Shown here in pieces: positions 9,553 through 55,553 of a stretch of DNA of 64,000 nucleotides. The DNA lies in contig CASEAG010000002.1 in NCBI GenBank assembly GCA_949285785.1, positions 1-64,000 of the forward strand, written 5' to 3'. Every line of letters starts with the position of its first letter. The stretch's first letter is position 1. The translations under genes were made by a program, and so were the position numbers. The stretch comes from an uncultured Spirochaetales bacterium (GTDB lineage Bacteria > Spirochaetota > Spirochaetia > Sphaerochaetales > Sphaerochaetaceae). The notes below the pieces were generated by a model. That model was given only the letters and a program-made list of their open reading frames with translations, was not told where the DNA came from and ran no database searches.

Positions 9553-10146
9553 ATGGTGACAGGACTTGTCGGAAAGAGCTGTGCGGGAAAGGACATGGCG
9601 GCGGAATTCTTCTTGTCCAAGGGCATTCCCGTGGTCGATGTCGATGCACTAGGGCATGAAGCCCTGGCGGCGAACGTCGACAGGATCGTCGAGGCGTTCG
9701 GGCCCGGGGTACTGAAGGACGATGGCAGCGTCGACCGCAAAAGGCTCGCGTCGATCGTGTTCGCCGACCGGAACCGTCTGGAGACGCTTGACGGGATAAG
9801 CCATCCGTGGATGCGCCGTCAGGTCGAAGCCTTCGTGGCCTCCCATGACGTGTGCATGATAAACTGCGCCCTGTTGGAGAAGATGGAGCTCGTCGGACTG
9901 TGCGACGAGATACTCTTCTTCCACGCCCCGCTCGAGGTGAGGATGAAGAGGGCTGCAATGCGCGATGGTCTGGACGAGAAGGCGTTCCTCGACAGGGACA
10001 GGAGCCAGAGGGAGATAGGATCCACGCTGTTCGAGTGCGGCAGGCGTGTCGTCACCATCCTCAACGACAGCGACCTGGAACATCTTTATCGACAACTGGA
10101 TTTCTATTATGCTACACTGATAGGTAGAGGTTACGTTCATGGGTAA
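9553..10146 (+). CDS. coaE: Dephospho-CoA kinase
   Basis: A 197-residue P-loop kinase that phosphorylates dephospho-CoA in the last step of coenzyme A synthesis. The Walker A region reads G-L-V-G-K-S-C-A-G-K-D, followed by V-D-V-D-A-L-G-H-E, which matches the D-A-D family motif, and the lid region R-D-R-S-Q-R-E-I. In most CoaE the loop is G-x-x-x-S-G-K-S/T; here it ends A-G-K-D, a mild deviation. The ATG is 1 base after the polA stop, so translation is probably coupled. Its 3' end overlaps the next gene by 8 bases. polA-coaE linkage is common in bacteria and supports the call. Confidence 0.9.
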   Translation: MVTGLVGKSCAGKDMAAEFFLSKGIPVVDVDALGHEALAANVDRIVEAFGPGVLKDDGSVDRKRLASIVFADRNRLETLDGISHPWMRRQVEAFVASHDVCMINCALLEKMELVGLCDEILFFHAPLEVRMKRAAMRDGLDEKAFLDRDRSQREIGSTLFECGRRVVTILNDSDLEHLYRQLDFYYATLIGRGYVHG

Positions 10147-11044
10147 GTCGACTCGTATAATTCTTTTGAGCGTCACGGTCGTTCTGGCCGTAGCCGCCTT
10201 CCTTGTCCTATGGGCGGTCCGTCCCGGCAGCGACAGCATGCTGCTGGAGCAGGCTCGTTCGAGACAGGTCCAGGGGCTTGTGGACATCGATGCCGAAGTC
10301 GACTATGACCAGGTCGCGGCTGCGCTTGTCGCGGATGACGGATTCATGAACTCCCTCTCGTCCGTTCTCATCGACGACGAAGAGTCCGCCGCCCGGCTCG
10401 ATGCCGACGAGGTCGAGAAGATCGTCGAGGCTGCCATCGACTCGTATGTCGCAGAGAACATGGGTGAGCTCGAGACGGTCATCGACAATGCCATCAGGGC
10501 CTATGTGGATGACAATATGGATGAGCTCGATGTCATCATCGACGATTCGATCCGCTCATATGTCGATGCAAACTACGACACGCTCCTCTCGCTGATAGCG
10601 CAGCAGGTCGCCCTCGAGTCTGTCGATGAGGATGTGCTGGCACAGGCTCTGGTCGAACCTGTCAGCCAGGCGGTCATGCAGGACCTCCAGGCGTACATCG
10701 GTTCAATCGACGTGGATGCGATCGTTGCGGGTGTCGAGGACCAGGTCGAGGCATATGTCCTGTCGGTCTTCGAACAGGCGACCGGATACACGGATGAGCA
10801 GATCGCCGCATTGAAGGATGCGCTCATGGACAGCGATGAAGTGAGAAGTCTCATGGATGATCTGGAGAGCCGCATCATGGATGAGGTCGACTCCCGTATC
10901 GAGGACAGCGCATCTAGGAGAGTCGTGTCCATCCCCGACTTCGAGTCGAGTCCCGTCGTGACGAGTGAAGACGACTACTCGTCTGTCAGGGAGGCGGAGA
11001 GGCAGGGCGCCATACAGAACCTGCTGAACGCACTGGTCCATTGA
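10139..11044 (+). CDS. Membrane-anchored acidic protein with internal repeats, function unknown
   Basis: A 301-residue protein I do not recognise. Residues 7-27 form one hydrophobic helix, so the rest is probably periplasmic or surface-facing and anchored at the N-terminus. Residues about 97-155 hold three imperfect 19-20 residue repeats of the form I-D-x-x-I-x-x-Y-V-x-x-N-x-x-E-L, rich in Asp and Glu. The remainder looks helical and acidic, and a low-complexity Ser/Asp stretch comes near the end. It overlaps coaE by 8 bases (AGAGG lies about 8 nt before the ATG) and ends at a hairpin, so it is the last gene of the metallo-hydrolase-polA-coaE operon. A coiled or TolA-like spacer is possible, but nothing in the sequence decides this. 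Confidence 0.75.
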   Translation: MGKSTRIILLSVTVVLAVAAFLVLWAVRPGSDSMLLEQARSRQVQGLVDIDAEVDYDQVAAALVADDGFMNSLSSVLIDDEESAARLDADEVEKIVEAAIDSYVAENMGELETVIDNAIRAYVDDNMDELDVIIDDSIRSYVDANYDTLLSLIAQQVALESVDEDVLAQALVEPVSQAVMQDLQAYIGSIDVDAIVAGVEDQVEAYVLSVFEQATGYTDEQIAALKDALMDSDEVRSLMDDLESRIMDEVDSRIEDSASRRVVSIPDFESSPVVTSEDDYSSVREAERQGAIQNLLNALVH

Positions 11045-32521: not shown

Positions 32522-33937
32522 TCAGTCGTCGAAGTCGAGGTACTCGTAAGGTCCGTACGATACCTTCAACAAGTGGCCGTGTCCCCAATCATCGTCATCG
32601 TAGAGGAATCTCTCCCTTCCTACGATGTCCTCTTCCAGCAGATCGTCGGCATCGCCGTTCCAGTTCCGCCCGATCTGTTCTGCCTCCTCCTCGCTCAGGG
32701 GAGTCGCCTGGGTGAGCTTGGCGATCAGGGTCCTGTCATTGGTCTTGTAATCTTCGTCGAATGTCGCCACATAGTGGTTTTCGCCATTAACATCAGTTGA
32801 TTCTCCGACGACGATGTTGTTCCGGCCGTCCACAGCTCCGTTGGCTTCTCTAACTATCGAGTGGTAGTATCTGTTGCCGCTGACATAAGGCGCATTGGAG
32901 TTGACGAATGTGACATTGCTGTTTCCTGATGCATTTTCGACGACGAGTCCGTTGACCACCTTGCCTGTTGCTTCTGTCAGGGTTTTGGCCTTGCAGTTGC
33001 GAAGATCGACTTCTACCTCCAGCTCCGTTTTGCCGTCGTGCTCGATGTTGAGCTTCCTGTAGTCGAGAGTCGTGAACTCGATGTTCCTCATCTCGAGCTC
33101 GACCTCGATCTCCTCGACATACCGGGGGTAGCCGCCGGATGGTGGTAAGATATTGAAGCTCTTGAATTCCGTTCTTTCGCTTCTGTTCCAGTCGTCATCG
33201 TAGCCGCCGATGATCTTGAGCTCGATCTCGCGCTCATCATCACCCCAGCCGCTGGAGACGTTCAAGAGGTGTGAGATGTCGAACGAATGGACTATGCCTT
33301 TGCGCATCTTGATCGTGAGCTCGTCATCATCGTCGTAGCCCCTGTGTTGGCCTAGGAACTCGAGGATATCATCGATATTGCTGAAAGGACGGGCGGCAGA
33401 ACCGTCACCGTCAACAGCTGTACCCGGATCGAAATAGACGCCACGGTCGAAGGTCGGGCGGATGTACTTGATGTATTCCGGCCTGATGTAGATCGTCTGG
33501 CTGTCATCATCGGTCAGGCTGGCGATCTCGGCCATGACCTGGCGCCAGGAATCAGGATAATCCCTCTTCATCTCCGCCCTGGAGCTGCGGGGTATCTTCC
33601 ATTCGTCGAAGACGAAGCCGGTTCTAGTCGATACGGTGTATCTTACGGTATCTCCTGCAACGTTGACGGTAGTCGAGAATTCGGTGTCGTTGGTTTCTGC
33701 CGACTGTCCTGTCGACCTCAGCCTGTTCGTGACATTCTCGCCACCGACACTTATTTCTGCCGATGCGAATCGCGAGCCGCTTGCTGCGCGGCTTGTCGTG
33801 TCTGCCGTTCCGTAGACCTTCACCTGCGCCTGAGTGTAATTGCCGGATCCGGAGGAGACGTCGTCGCAGGCGATAATGGTGAGGGCGAGGACAATCACTA
33901 GGAAGGCAAGCAGAGCACCTGTTCTGTTTGTTCTCAT
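32522..33937 (-). CDS. Asp-rich surface lipoprotein with probable beta-helix region
   Basis: A 471-residue lipoprotein: basic start, hydrophobic core and lipobox L-T-I-I-A-C at about residues 18-23, so it is lipid-anchored and probably surface- or periplasm-facing. Residues about 160-210 include G-D-G-S-A-A-R-P-F-S-N-I-D-D-I-L-E, a DUF1565-like entry often seen before parallel beta-helices, and the C-terminal half has short Asn-rich repeats (N-A-S-G-N-S-N-V-T-F-V-N-S-N) that suit one. Asp clusters could bind calcium. Base composition is lower in GC than neighbours (26 of 60 in one sampled line, 32881-32940). AAAGGAG lies 8-9 nt before the ATG. No family is assigned; adhesion or glycan binding is a guess. 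Confidence 0.72.
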   Translation of the reverse strand: MRTNRTGALLAFLVIVLALTIIACDDVSSGSGNYTQAQVKVYGTADTTSRAASGSRFASAEISVGGENVTNRLRSTGQSAETNDTEFSTTVNVAGDTVRYTVSTRTGFVFDEWKIPRSSRAEMKRDYPDSWRQVMAEIASLTDDDSQTIYIRPEYIKYIRPTFDRGVYFDPGTAVDGDGSAARPFSNIDDILEFLGQHRGYDDDDELTIKMRKGIVHSFDISHLLNVSSGWGDDEREIELKIIGGYDDDWNRSERTEFKSFNILPPSGGYPRYVEEIEVELEMRNIEFTTLDYRKLNIEHDGKTELEVEVDLRNCKAKTLTEATGKVVNGLVVENASGNSNVTFVNSNAPYVSGNRYYHSIVREANGAVDGRNNIVVGESTDVNGENHYVATFDEDYKTNDRTLIAKLTQATPLSEEEAEQIGRNWNGDADDLLEEDIVGRERFLYDDDDWGHGHLLKVSYGPYEYLDFDD

Positions 33938-34186
33938 AGTGTGTTCTCCTTTCTGGTAGATACGGATCAATCCGTAGGCCAAGTCTAGCATGACGCATTG
34001 CTTCGTGTTGTGTTTCGTTGCAAATAGCAAAAATATTATAGAATTGCAAATGATGTTACATGATATTGTCTCATTATGGTATGTGACAAATCGTAATTCA
34101 CCATGAGTAATGATTTCACATGGCTTTCGCCTGCCTGTACGGTGCCATGATTGCCCCATCGCCTTCAAAGCGCTAGACTTCTTTCC
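33938..34186. promoter_or_regulatory. AT-rich divergent control region
   Basis: A 249-base gap between the lipoprotein and beta-barrel genes. It holds TAGACT on the minus strand (33982-33987) followed by a small hairpin in the leader (TACGGA-TTGA-TCCGTA, 33961-33976), the plus-strand promoter at 34151-34179, two copies of TTGCAAAT (34018-34025 and 34044-34051) and ATGTGACAAATCG (34081-34093), which nearly matches 17609-17621. Confidence 0.5.
34151..34179 (+). promoter_or_regulatory. Leaderless promoter of the beta-barrel gene
   Basis: TTGCCC (34151-34156), 17 nt, TAGACT (34174-34179), 7 nt, ATG. Confidence 0.75.
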
Positions 34187-51099: not shown

Positions 51100-52548
51100 A
51101 TGAGACGATCCATATCAGCAGTGGCTGTCGCACTCCTGTGTGCAGGGATGCTCTTCGCCACACCGTATGAGGAGATCCTGAGCAGGGCGATGGAGAACAG
51201 CCCGCAGATGAAGAACGTGGAGCTGACCTATCTCAACAGCCTCCTGACCCAGCAGCAGAACGACCTGGACGATGCGGTCAAGGTGACGGTGAGTACGGGG
51301 CAATGGAATATTGCTTTTGAAGAAGAGTCGATTGGTACTATGAATGGTGGAGTGCAATCGAATTCTTTAATTTCTGCTCTTGCTGGTTATAATTCTCCCT
51401 CTGTTTCTGTAGCGATTCCTAATGGTGAGAGCGAGACAAAAATAACTGCGAGTACTGGATTGAATTTCAACTATGGTGAACAGAAATCATATAGTATTTC
51501 GCCTTCTTTGAGCGCATCCCACACGTTCGACCTGACCGGCTACGACTCGGATCTGGCCGTGGATCTGTCCAATGCAAGATCCTCGATCCAGAGCGAATAC
51601 ACGTACAGGAATGCGCTGCTTTCCTTCGAGAGCCAGGTGCTCACCAGTATCAAGACGCTTCTCCAGGCGGAGCAGACTCTCAATGAGACGAAGTACGAGC
51701 TTGCAAAGGCCGAACAGACGCTCTCGGATGCACTTGAACTTGGAAACATGACGGAGGGAAGCGTCTCGTATCTCCAGTCCATGAATGCAATCAATCTTCA
51801 GAAGCGCACGATCGATGCGACCGAGAAGCAGATCGAGACCGCCAAGCAGCAGTACACGACGCTTACAGGACTTGTGTGGGATGGTGTCGAGGATCTTCCT
51901 TCTCCAGACCTGACCATCAATGTCCTGTCAACGGGAAACACTTCGGTCGTCCTTGCCGGAATCGATGTGGAGCTTGCACAGCAGGCAATTGAAGAATTGA
52001 ATCATAAGATTGGAACTTCTGAGCTTTCCATAGATGGTGCAATTGGTGGAGATTTCTCAAAGGATTCAACCTCTTATGATGGAAGTGCAGGTGTTGCCTA
52101 TTCGGCAGGCAACTGGGCAGTTGGGACAGCTTTTGGTGGCAGTTTCGACAACCAGTCAGGAAAGTTCCATCCAACTCTTTCTGTAGGCGCGTCATGGACC
52201 AACAAGACAACCAAGAAGAGCGACGAGATCGAGCTGCAGATGCTTAACAACGATCTGGTGAGCGCCCAGAACGAGCTTGCAGATGCCAAGACGTCATACA
52301 TCCAGGACATGCAGAATCTGCAGATCGAGATACTGAATCACGAGTATACTCTGCAGAACAATGCGGCGCAGAAGGAGTACTTGGAGTCGAATCTCGAATA
52401 CCAGCAGACGCTGTTCGACTCCGGCCTTTGCACGCAGCAGGATGTTGATGATGCACGCAAGCAGGTGGAGTGGGCCTCCGTGCAGGATATGATAGACACC
52501 ATCGAGGGACTTCTCCTCCAGATCAAGATAGCACAACTGAATCTCTAG
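51100..52548 (+). CDS. TolC-family outer-membrane efflux protein, mosaic
   Basis: A 482-residue outer-membrane channel. A signal peptide (M-R-R-S-I-S, hydrophobic core, L-F-A-T cleavage near residue 22) is followed by two TolC-type repeats with helical hairpins (A-M-E-N-S-P-Q-M-K-N-V-E-L, then T-L-N-E-T-K-Y-E-L-A-K-A-E-Q-T; second copy E-I-E-L-Q-M-L-N-N-D-L-V-S-A-Q-N-E-L). Between the helices of each repeat lie segments (residues about 68-139 and 296-366) with a plain change in base composition and codon use: 22 and 24 GC per 60 against 32-34 in flanks. By homology these are the barrel and surface loops. It forms the exit duct for the MacAB-type pump encoded next. AGGAGA lies 4-5 nt before the ATG. 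Confidence 0.88.
   Translation: MRRSISAVAVALLCAGMLFATPYEEILSRAMENSPQMKNVELTYLNSLLTQQQNDLDDAVKVTVSTGQWNIAFEEESIGTMNGGVQSNSLISALAGYNSPSVSVAIPNGESETKITASTGLNFNYGEQKSYSISPSLSASHTFDLTGYDSDLAVDLSNARSSIQSEYTYRNALLSFESQVLTSIKTLLQAEQTLNETKYELAKAEQTLSDALELGNMTEGSVSYLQSMNAINLQKRTIDATEKQIETAKQQYTTLTGLVWDGVEDLPSPDLTINVLSTGNTSVVLAGIDVELAQQAIEELNHKIGTSELSIDGAIGGDFSKDSTSYDGSAGVAYSAGNWAVGTAFGGSFDNQSGKFHPTLSVGASWTNKTTKKSDEIELQMLNNDLVSAQNELADAKTSYIQDMQNLQIEILNHEYTLQNNAAQKEYLESNLEYQQTLFDSGLCTQQDVDDARKQVEWASVQDMIDTIEGLLLQIKIAQLNL
51303..51515 (+). other. AT-rich mosaic tract 1 in the TolC-like gene
   Basis: About 213 bases whose base composition and codon choice differ from the rest of the gene: the line 51361-51420 has 22 G+C of 60 (37%) against 34 of 60 at 51181-51240 and 32 of 60 at 51541-51600. 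The frame is unbroken. It encodes the first barrel/loop region. Edges are estimates. Confidence 0.7.
51985..52195 (+). other. AT-rich mosaic tract 2 in the TolC-like gene
   Basis: About 211 bases of the same kind: the line 52021-52080 has 24 G+C of 60 (40%). It encodes the equivalent barrel/loop region of the second TolC repeat. Edges are estimates. Confidence 0.7.
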
Positions 52549-52572
52549 GAATGACGATACGAAGGAATGACC

Positions 52573-53688
52573 ATGAGCGAAGACAAGAATACGAAGATCA
52601 ATGATGAAGTGGTTCTCAGCGAGAGCGAGAAGCAGGAGAGGATCCTGCGCGAGCAGTTCAAGATCAAGAAGAGGAACAGGCGGATAAAGAAGCTCGTCAT
52701 CTGGGCCATCGTCATACTCGTCCTGGTGCTCGGCCTGAGCTGGTACATGCAGCTGAGGGAGAACATGAGGGCTGAGCAGGAGGCCATGATGGCACGTTCC
52801 AGCCAGGTGCAGGCAAAGGTCACCCGCAACGTGTACACGGCCACCATCGACCTGTCGGGCTACGTCGAGGCATACGACATCCAGAACGCACGCTTCCGTG
52901 CAACAGGCCCCATCACTGCGGTCAACGTGGAGGAGGGTGACATCGTCCATGAAGGAGATGTCCTGGCCACCATCGACAGCACAAGCCAGACATACAATGT
53001 GGAAAGCATCAGGCGCCAGATCCGCGAGGCCGAGCTCAACGGAACACAGTCGCAGCTCGAACTGCTGAATCTGCAGCTGACCACTGCACTCAACAACCTT
53101 GAGTACACGAATCTCGTGGCCAACTTCGACGGCACCGTCGCCGATGTGAACATCACCGAGGGCGACTACTTCGAAGCCGGAAGCACCGATGCCGCGGTAA
53201 CCATCGCGGACCTCTCCCGCCTGAAGGCCACGGTGGAGATAGACGAGATCGACATGCAGTATGTCTACCTTGGTCAGACGGCATACCTCACCTTCGACTC
53301 CATTCCGGGGCAGGTCGTGGAGGCCTACGTCTCCTACATCCCGACGCTCGGCACATATTCCAGCCAGGGCATCGGCGTGGTGGAGGTGGAGCTGACCATC
53401 GACAATCCTCCTGCATCCCTCAAGCCCGGTTACAGTTTCGAGGGCACCATAGCAAGCGAAGGGGATGTGGAGATGCTTCTCCTGCCGCAGGCTGCGGTCA
53501 CGACCGGGCGCGGCGGTGCAACCACCGTCCAGAAGCTTCTGGAGGACGGCACGACGGAGACGGTCAGCGTCAGCGTGAAATACCTTGGAGAGGGGACCTG
53601 CCAGCTCGTTGCCGGCAACCTCGTCGAGGGGGACACCCTGGTCTATACCAGAGAGACCGGTGGCTTCATGGGCATGATGAGGTTCTAG
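52573..53688 (+). CDS. MacA-like membrane fusion protein
   Basis: A 371-residue periplasmic adaptor. About 48 charged residues precede one membrane helix (38-60), then a split lipoyl/biotinyl domain (G-P-I-T-A-V-N-V-E-E-G-D-I-V-H-E-G-D-V-L) around a short helical hairpin, and beta-barrel domains (F-D-G-T-V-A-D-V-N-I, P-G-Q-V-V-E-A-Y-V). It links MacB-like ATPase/permease to the TolC-like channel. AAGGA 6-7 nt before ATG 52573 decides the start over ATG 52567. The gap to the TolC gene is 24 bases. Confidence 0.9.
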   Translation: MSEDKNTKINDEVVLSESEKQERILREQFKIKKRNRRIKKLVIWAIVILVLVLGLSWYMQLRENMRAEQEAMMARSSQVQAKVTRNVYTATIDLSGYVEAYDIQNARFRATGPITAVNVEEGDIVHEGDVLATIDSTSQTYNVESIRRQIREAELNGTQSQLELLNLQLTTALNNLEYTNLVANFDGTVADVNITEGDYFEAGSTDAAVTIADLSRLKATVEIDEIDMQYVYLGQTAYLTFDSIPGQVVEAYVSYIPTLGTYSSQGIGVVEVELTIDNPPASLKPGYSFEGTIASEGDVEMLLLPQAAVTTGRGGATTVQKLLEDGTTETVSVSVKYLGEGTCQLVAGNLVEGDTLVYTRETGGFMGMMRF

Positions 53689-53691
53689 CCT

Positions 53692-54372
53692 ATGTCCGAA
53701 AACGTCATAGAACTGGTGAACGTACGCCGCTACTATATCGTGGGCGACTTCTGCGTCAAGGCGCTTGACGGGGTCTGTGCACAGATACGCAAGGGCTCGT
53801 TCACCGCGATCATGGGTCCCTCCGGTTCGGGCAAGAGCACGATGATGAACCTCATCGGCTGTCTCGACACCCCGACCAGCGGGTACATAAGGATCGACGG
53901 GGAATACACCAACAACCTCACCGAGAAGGAGCTTGCCGACATCCGCAACCGCAAGGTCGGCTTCGTCTTCCAGCAGTTCAACCTGCTTGGCAAGCAGACC
54001 GCCCTGGACAATGTCATGACGCCGCTTCTTTATGCCGGTGTCAGAGGACGCGAGAGGAAGGAGAGGGCGGAGGCCCTGCTCGAGAGGGTCGGCCTGAAGG
54101 ACAGGATGAAACACCTGCCCAGCGAGTTGTCGGGAGGTCAGAAGCAGCGTGTCGCCATAGCCAGGGCGCTGGTGAACAACCCGTCCATCCTGCTTGCCGA
54201 CGAGCCTACCGGTGCGCTCGACAGCCGTACCGGCGACCAGATCATGGAGCTGTTCCAGGACCTCAACGACGAAGGCCGCACCGTCGTCTTCGTCACGCAT
54301 GACAGAGGTCTTGGCATGAGATGCCGTGAGCAGATCTACATCCATGACGGAAAGATTGTGGAGGCGCTGTGA
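53692..54372 (+). CDS. MacB-like ABC exporter, ATP-binding protein
   Basis: A 226-residue ATPase of the MacB/LolD family: Walker [10 protein letters not shown], the family Q loop F-V-F-Q-Q-F-N-L-L, signature [15 protein letters not shown] and Walker [12 protein letters not shown]. It powers the pump from the cytoplasm. In E. coli MacB this domain is fused to the permease; here it is a separate gene, whose stop overlaps the permease ATG. The start follows the MacA-like stop by 3 bases. Confidence 0.95.
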
Positions 54373-55553
54373 TGGTCTGGGAGAACATAAAGATAGCTCT
54401 TACATCGATGGTCCACAACAAGATGAGGACTCTGTTGTCCCTGCTTGGAATCATCATCGGCGTCGCTGCCGTCGTGGCAATACTGAATCTCGGCCAGTCC
54501 GTCACCGAATCGATCACGGAGAGCATGAATGTCGGCGGAATAGACATGGTCAACGTCTTCCCCTCCGGCTCGTCGCGTGAGCTGAACGTCTTCGACGAGG
54601 CATTCGGCGAGACGCTGATGAACAACGTTGACGGAATAGAGTCGGTGCTTCCCGTCGTATCGTCGACCACCAGGGTCAGGAGCGGACAGGACATACTGTC
54701 GGTGTCGATCTCCGGCGTAACATCGAACTTCTTCGAGGTGAACAATGCCGAGCTGCTGTACGGAGAGTATTTCACCGCACTGGACAACATAAACCGCCGT
54801 CAAGTCGTCGTCCTGGGAAAGGACGTCGCAGACGAGCTCTTCCCGGTCGGCAACGCGGTCGGCTCATACGTGTCCATCTTCCGCCAGTCCTCCAAGCGCT
54901 ACCTGGTCGTCGGTGTCCTTGACGAGAAGGATTCCACTCTCGGCAACAGCTTCGACAACACGATCTTCATCCCGCTGAACACATATGGCCAGAGGTTCAG
55001 GAGGATCACCACCATGTCCAGCTACACCTGCAAGGTGTATGACGGCGTGGATGCCACGGTGGTCTCGGACAACATAGAGAACTACCTCAACGACCTGGTC
55101 GGATCGGACTACTTCATGGTCATGAGCGCAGCATCCCTCGTGGAGATGTCGCAGGAGGTCATGACCACGCTCTCCACGTTCCTCGCCGCCATAGCCGCCA
55201 TCTCGCTGCTGGTCGGTGGAATAGGAATCATGAACATCATGCTCGTCTCCGTCGCGGAGAGGACAAGGGAGATAGGCATCCGCAAGGCGCTAGGCGCGAG
55301 TCCCGGCGTAATAATGGGTCAGTTCCTTGTCGAGGCGCTCACGCTCACGATCATCGGAGGTCTCATAGGACTGCTGATCGGTAGCCTGATCAGCTATGCC
55401 ATTGTCAATCTGGCTGGCTGGAGCCTATACTTCAGCTATTCGGCGATCGTCCTGTCGATCGGCTTCAGCATGTTCGTCGGCGTGTTCTTCGGATGGTATC
55501 CGGCGGCCAAGGCATCGAAGCTCGATCCGATCGAGTCGCTGAGCTACGAGTGA
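54372..55553 (+). CDS. MacB-like ABC exporter, permease
   Basis: A 393-residue permease: one helix near the N-terminus (L-L-S-L-L-G-I-I-I-G-V-A-A-V), a large periplasmic MacB_PCD domain (about 45-250) and three C-terminal helices with G-G-I-G-I-M-N-I-M-L-V-S-V-A-E-R-T-R-E-I-G then I-R-K-A-L-G-A, the FtsX/MacB core. It moves substrates from the periplasm into the TolC channel by mechanotransmission. ATG overlaps the ATPase stop (TGATG). Substrate unknown: macrolides, peptides or lipoproteins are typical of the family. Confidence 0.95.
   Translation: MVWENIKIALTSMVHNKMRTLLSLLGIIIGVAAVVAILNLGQSVTESITESMNVGGIDMVNVFPSGSSRELNVFDEAFGETLMNNVDGIESVLPVVSSTTRVRSGQDILSVSISGVTSNFFEVNNAELLYGEYFTALDNINRRQVVVLGKDVADELFPVGNAVGSYVSIFRQSSKRYLVVGVLDEKDSTLGNSFDNTIFIPLNTYGQRFRRITTMSSYTCKVYDGVDATVVSDNIENYLNDLVGSDYFMVMSAASLVEMSQEVMTTLSTFLAAIAAISLLVGGIGIMNIMLVSVAERTREIGIRKALGASPGVIMGQFLVEALTLTIIGGLIGLLIGSLISYAIVNLAGWSLYFSYSAIVLSIGFSMFVGVFFGWYPAAKASKLDPIESLSYE

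Follow-up and report, generated by a model that had tools for sequence, protein, structure and literature searches.

A mosaic efflux duct gene in spirochaetes, with two exchanged segments in the predicted outer-membrane barrel

The ducts of efflux pumps are usually regarded as conserved drug and vaccine targets. Several other outer-membrane proteins are known to be mosaics. In E. coli, 21 mosaic families have been described—including FhuA, LamB, OmpA, OmpC, OmpF and FadL, with CusC also named—in which a conserved gene carries hypervariable regions in exposed loops, intragenic recombination occurs, and a limited number of sequence types is found (PMC12175518). TolC itself is absent from the main text of that work, where the exchange is read as favouring phage resistance. 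A loop-bearing porin of Neisseria, the 16-stranded PorB, is likewise reported to be altered by exchange within the genus (PMC10327514). Solved structures of E. coli TolC and related outer membrane factors (1ek9, 9tg4, 3pik) show a helical duct built of two repeats, with two strands per repeat and four per subunit. Among spirochaetes, Treponema pallidum carries four duct paralogues, TP0966–TP0969, tied to a pump of MacAB type whose ATPase and permease are encoded by separate genes; in published models, each subunit has four strands and a pair of large outer loops (PMC8407342).

The locus of interest lies in the window, the whole 64,000-nucleotide stretch of DNA analysed here (the first 64 kb of contig C2; GC 58%), from a spirochaete genome (Spirochaetales) of 2.05 Mb in 40 contigs, ~96% complete. 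Open reading frames and profile matches place a TolC-like duct gene first in a MacA-MacB operon (Table 1), and the gene is predicted to encode an outer-membrane duct serving an ABC efflux pump of the MacAB type. The OEP profile (PF02321) matches the duct protein in its second repeat only, with a score that is weak but above threshold (30.9 bits against a cut-off of 22); in a profile search of the whole genome the protein scores 26.5 bits, again above the cut-off. Duct, adaptor, ATPase and MacB permease are encoded together, as in a MacAB-TolC pump of putative transport function, and a MacA-type adaptor gene adjoins the duct gene in 80 of 81 relatives across the family. As in T. pallidum, a spirochaete duct is linked here to a MacAB-type pump whose ATPase and permease have a gene each; T. 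pallidum has four duct paralogues (PMC8407342), whereas a single mosaic gene is found here. Two further outer-membrane efflux genes lie elsewhere in the genome, on contigs C9 and C32.

Table 1. Coordinates of the pump operon and of the parts of the duct gene (window positions; T1 and T2, first and second tract; residues are those of the duct protein).
Feature	Positions	Strand	Basis
TolC-like outer membrane factor (predicted efflux duct), 482 aa	51100..52548	+	ATG at 51100; Pfam OEP; AlphaFold2 model matches TolC
First duct helices, conserved left anchor	51166..51299	+	51100-51299 96% identical to G011 gene; helices 23-33, 35-55
T1, first barrel segment, replaced, low GC3	51300..51522	+	Likelihood breakpoints; identity to G011 gene 26-58%; strands and loops, residues 61-144
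Most variable outer loop, residues 75-91	51322..51372	+	Entropy; up to 25 inserted residues in relatives
Middle duct helices, conserved between tracts	51523..51986	+	89% identical to G011 gene; helices 150-256, 281-304
T2, second barrel segment, replaced, low GC3	51987..52194	+	Likelihood breakpoints; identity to G011 gene 51%; strands, residues 307-366
Last duct helices, conserved right anchor	52195..52545	+	93% identical to G011 gene; helices 373-481
MacA-type periplasmic adaptor	52567..53688	+	Pfam HlyD_D23, HlyD_3
MacB-type ATPase	53692..54372	+	Pfam ABC_tran; best NCBIfam match MacB, under its cut-off
MacB-type permease	54369..55553	+	Pfam MacB_PCD, FtsX

Comparison with the closest relative, a sister species (G011) that carries the same operon, revealed two sharply bounded tracts in the duct gene, hereafter T1 and T2. 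Firstly, protein identity is 93% in the helices, 38% in T1 and 42–45% in T2 (depending on the exact border). Secondly, the divergence extends to synonymous positions: where the two genes encode the same amino acid, third codon positions agree in 251 of 303 codons outside the tracts and in 17 of 58 inside them (p=2e-15), the corresponding agreement for MacA and MacB being 0.83–0.86. A likelihood segmentation of the alignment, which is blind to composition, places the breakpoints at 51300, 51508–51522, 51987 and 52194. These lie within a few bases of the borders (51303–51515 and 51985–52195) that a sequence-only reading of the window had drawn from composition. Among 66 pairs of open reading frames compared between the two species, the duct gene is the only one in which a strong internal divergence block is also synonymously saturated.

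Other features were also noted in the comparison with the sister species. Several large drops in identity at codon 0 most likely reflect wrong start codons or wrong-strand open reading frames, and a third-position value of 0.39 for a hydrogenase gene was discarded since the start had been placed inside the upstream gene (the value is 0.92 in the 66-pair comparison). The protein encoded at 10139–11044, which has no Pfam match and carries acidic, heptad-like repeats, is 38% identical to its G011 counterpart from about residue 60 onwards and 78% identical in the rest; its synonymous identity is normal, a pattern of fast protein change without import. Within the duct gene, the left flank (51100–51299) has a third-position identity to G011 of 0.98 against a contig median of 0.76, as if it had recently been homogenised.

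The two tracts also differ from the rest of the gene in composition. The sequence-only reading had described two AT-rich tracts at 37% and 40% GC; both are real, and T1 (38.5% over 51303–51515) is close to the figure given, but T2 is shallower (45.5% over 51985–52195), the left, middle and right parts of the gene having 58.1%, 54.4% and 51.8%. The dip is a third-codon-position, synonymous effect: GC at third positions (GC3) is 0.26 in T1 and 0.32 in T2 against 0.74 in the rest of the duct gene, while GC at the first two positions is 0.44, 0.53 and 0.44, respectively. From amino-acid content, using per-amino-acid codon choice in 63,820 codons of the same contig, a GC3 of 0.75 is expected for T1 and 0.72 for T2; the deviations amount to z = -9.6 and -7.8. 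Of 166 open reading frames tested (204 kb of contig C2), none has an intragenic GC3 dip stronger than that of T1; the remaining two outer-membrane efflux genes in the genome show no dip. In the G011 gene, the same tracts have a host-like GC3 of 0.70–0.72 and resemble those of other members of the genus; it is therefore most likely that the window's lineage received foreign alleles. Across most of the genus (G002–G015) the tracts are slightly poorer in GC3 than the helices, though not consistently so elsewhere in the family, and part of the composition signal may thus be general. A common stock of low-GC3 barrel alleles may exist within the genus. Elsewhere in the window, a secreted, lipoprotein-like protein is predicted at 32522–34168 (minus strand); it has no Pfam match and a GC3-poor start (0.42 vs 0.69).

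The mosaic evidence consists of comparisons between species, and neither of the two outcomes that the sequence-only reading had named as counting against it was seen. Sister-clade tests on the T1 and T2 trees were not significant (p 0.11–0.25), as is to be expected when alignments are so short and branches long; it is accordingly divergence, composition and reassortment, and not tree topology, that carry the case.

Replacement of these segments had been proposed to be a repeated event, and this is borne out in the genus and, most clearly, in a second genus of the family. In the same genus, both tracts of a second genome (G009) diverge from two relatives (G012 and G001) beyond the helices, synonymous sites included (p=4e-5 and 1.5e-4), while the G012/G001 pair, serving as a negative control, has no such excess (p=0.27). 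The tract borders of G009 are less sharp in the segmentation, and G009 is a second, weaker case of exchange involving both tracts. In another genus of the family (g3), helices are 95–99% identical in protein and the pairings of T1 and T2 alleles differ. At the nucleotide level, L132 and L135 agree at 99.5% of bases in T1, 100% at the right end and 76.7% in T2, while L132 and L140 agree at 72.4% in T1, 99.8% in the middle and 100% in T2. Segmentation gave, for one g3 pair, a T1 of 60% between flanks of 97.5% and 99.9%, and for another, a first T2 loop of 48% with a right end of 100%. In this genus, T1 and T2 reassort independently on near-identical helices. These computations establish the mosaic, its borders, its recurrence and its reassortment. 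Since relatives swap T1 and T2 one at a time, the exposed face of the pump acts as a set of exchangeable modules. One g3 pair of species (L145/L147) shows tracts that are more alike than the helices, also at synonymous positions (0.96 vs 0.84, p=6e-4), which suggests a recent transfer of the tracts between these two.

The window protein (pLDDT 83.8, 29 sequences) and the L132 protein (pLDDT 90.9, 67 sequences) were modelled with AlphaFold2, and both models have the TolC-like, two-repeat fold with long periplasmic helices; the best TolC-like matches reach Z 18.8 (374 residues, rmsd 5.7) and Z 19.4, respectively. It had been noted that placement of the tracts in the periplasmic duct would speak against an exchange of surface segments. 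Instead, in both models T1 and T2 fall on the outer-membrane barrel and its surface loops, in line with the original assignment to the barrel and loop part of each repeat. Variability across relatives agrees: four peaks coincide with predicted outer loops, where insertions of up to 25 residues occur, while the turns PNDG and AGNW on the predicted periplasmic side are more conserved. Model confidence is low in the first loop of the window protein (residues 71–97).

Like TolC and the related solved factors, the protein is a two-repeat helical duct whose gene shares an operon with MacA and MacB. It differs from them in the predicted number of strands: four per repeat and eight per subunit in both models, twice the number in TolC. 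Taken jointly, the beta parts of both repeats align with portions of the barrels of porins and BamA (Z ~9–12, ~110–140 residues). Eight strands per subunit, in two models of single chains, depart from the four of the classical 12-stranded TolC type, and we therefore file the duct in the OEP superfamily, outside that type. According to the models, a trimer would have 24 strands. A search of solved structures with the duct sequence gave no relevant match, and a literature search found no published 24-stranded TolC-type duct.

Taken together, we consider it highly probable that the barrel segments of this mosaic gene have been replaced by deeply diverged homologous alleles through homologous recombination, the rest of the gene being kept; selection would hold the alleles diverse. 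The donor would be an unsampled, low-GC3 relative with homologous, deeply diverged barrel alleles. Incoming DNA would have recombined with crossovers in the conserved helix-coding flanks, leaving the remaining gene in place. Given the alleles common to exchanged partners and the crossovers in conserved flanks, homologous recombination is the simplest process. Repeated, independent exchange of the same segments across the family would then yield a conserved periplasmic chassis with two exchangeable barrel/loop cassettes. A search of 139 family genomes turned up no donor sequence for T1 or T2, the best T1 match being 58–59% over ~41 residues. A ComEC homologue is present in the genome. ComEC is common, and its presence alone is no proof of competence.

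The alternative that survives best, though very improbable, is rapid point-mutational divergence in place, by relaxed or positive selection on the loops with loss of codon preference and no import. It would fit the loops being the most variable positions, the mildly GC3-poor tracts of several genus members, and the L004/L006 pair, in which the T1 protein is 80% identical with no synonymous excess. It does not account for saturated synonymous positions inside the window/G011 tracts next to ~83% identity outside and sharp borders, for the GC3 retained by the G011 tracts, or for the identical alleles that exchanged partners in g3 have in common.

A dedicated diversification system, as the sequence-only reading had suggested, is only about half as credible as that. 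Such a system—silent donor cassettes with gene conversion, as for tprK and vls, or a diversity-generating retroelement—could explain why two defined tracts per gene are repeatedly exchanged. Against this, the donor copies that had been predicted elsewhere in the genome did not appear: in the window's own genome, no second copy of T1 or T2 was found beyond chance matches of up to ~20 bases, and protein searches were also negative. Neither a dedicated reverse transcriptase nor a template copy of a retroelement was detected there; the sole RVT_1 match is a group II intron reverse transcriptase/maturase (L052:16129–17592, on C2 at ~120 kb, outside the window). At ~96% completeness of the genome, a missing donor locus is possible.

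Less probable still is an assembly chimera, in which foreign tracts were joined to host flanks in a metagenome-assembled genome. The genome is in 40 contigs, the close relatives found for it in public records are metagenome assemblies, and assemblers can jump between strains at shared words. But each of the four in-frame joins would require exact word matches to a donor with synonymous saturation in its tracts, and this in itself presupposes a natural allele flanked in the same way. Moreover, the same mosaic form occurs in g3 genomes assembled in one or two contigs (L132, L133, L139 and L140), so metagenome assembly is not the cause of those mosaics. Finally, low GC as an ordinary property of barrel-coding DNA has almost nothing left to recommend it: the barrel segments are rich in Ser, Thr, Asn, Gly and Tyr, but amino-acid content is ruled out as a cause by the expected GC3 values above, and general barrel codon use by the lack of a dip in the G011 gene and in the two other ducts of the genome.

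Diverse alleles would persist through selection on the exposed part of the duct. In enterobacteria, phages and bacteriocins are known to enter by way of TolC, as described for colicin E1 (PMC9020818), klebicin C (PMC8324772) and phage U136B (PMC10304864). Phages, bacteriocins or hosts (through immune pressure) that land on the spirochaete duct may similarly select on its exposed loops, while the need to dock to MacA may hold the helices constant.

Mosaic outer-membrane proteins as such are not new. The duct shares with those of E. coli (PMC12175518) a mostly conserved sequence with local intragenic recombination, sequence types that are limited in number and, as judged from models and variability, variable regions in exposed loops. 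The E. coli proteins vary within one species, whereas the present variation is between species and affects a MacAB-linked duct; unlike them, the duct has two independently reassorting barrel halves and is strongly marked in its third-position composition. As an exchanged, loop-bearing protein it is like Neisseria PorB, which PMC10327514 presents as a porin, while here the protein is the duct of a three-part pump. What is new is an efflux duct in which two barrel cassettes reassort independently across species, together with a barrel of predicted doubled strand number. We tentatively propose, at slightly less than even confidence, a family-wide class of MacAB-linked ducts with eight strands from each subunit; the outer-membrane barrel of a trimer would then have 24 strands and twelve surface loops, and the two barrel halves would be swapped between species as cassettes that reassort independently while the docking chassis stays fixed.

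Third-position composition within one gene can place recombination borders to within a few bases. If eight strands per subunit are true, outer-membrane factor architecture is broader than the solved 12-stranded structures. For these spirochaetes, the exposed part of the duct is interchangeable between species and the pump-docking part is fixed, separating surface identity from pump function.
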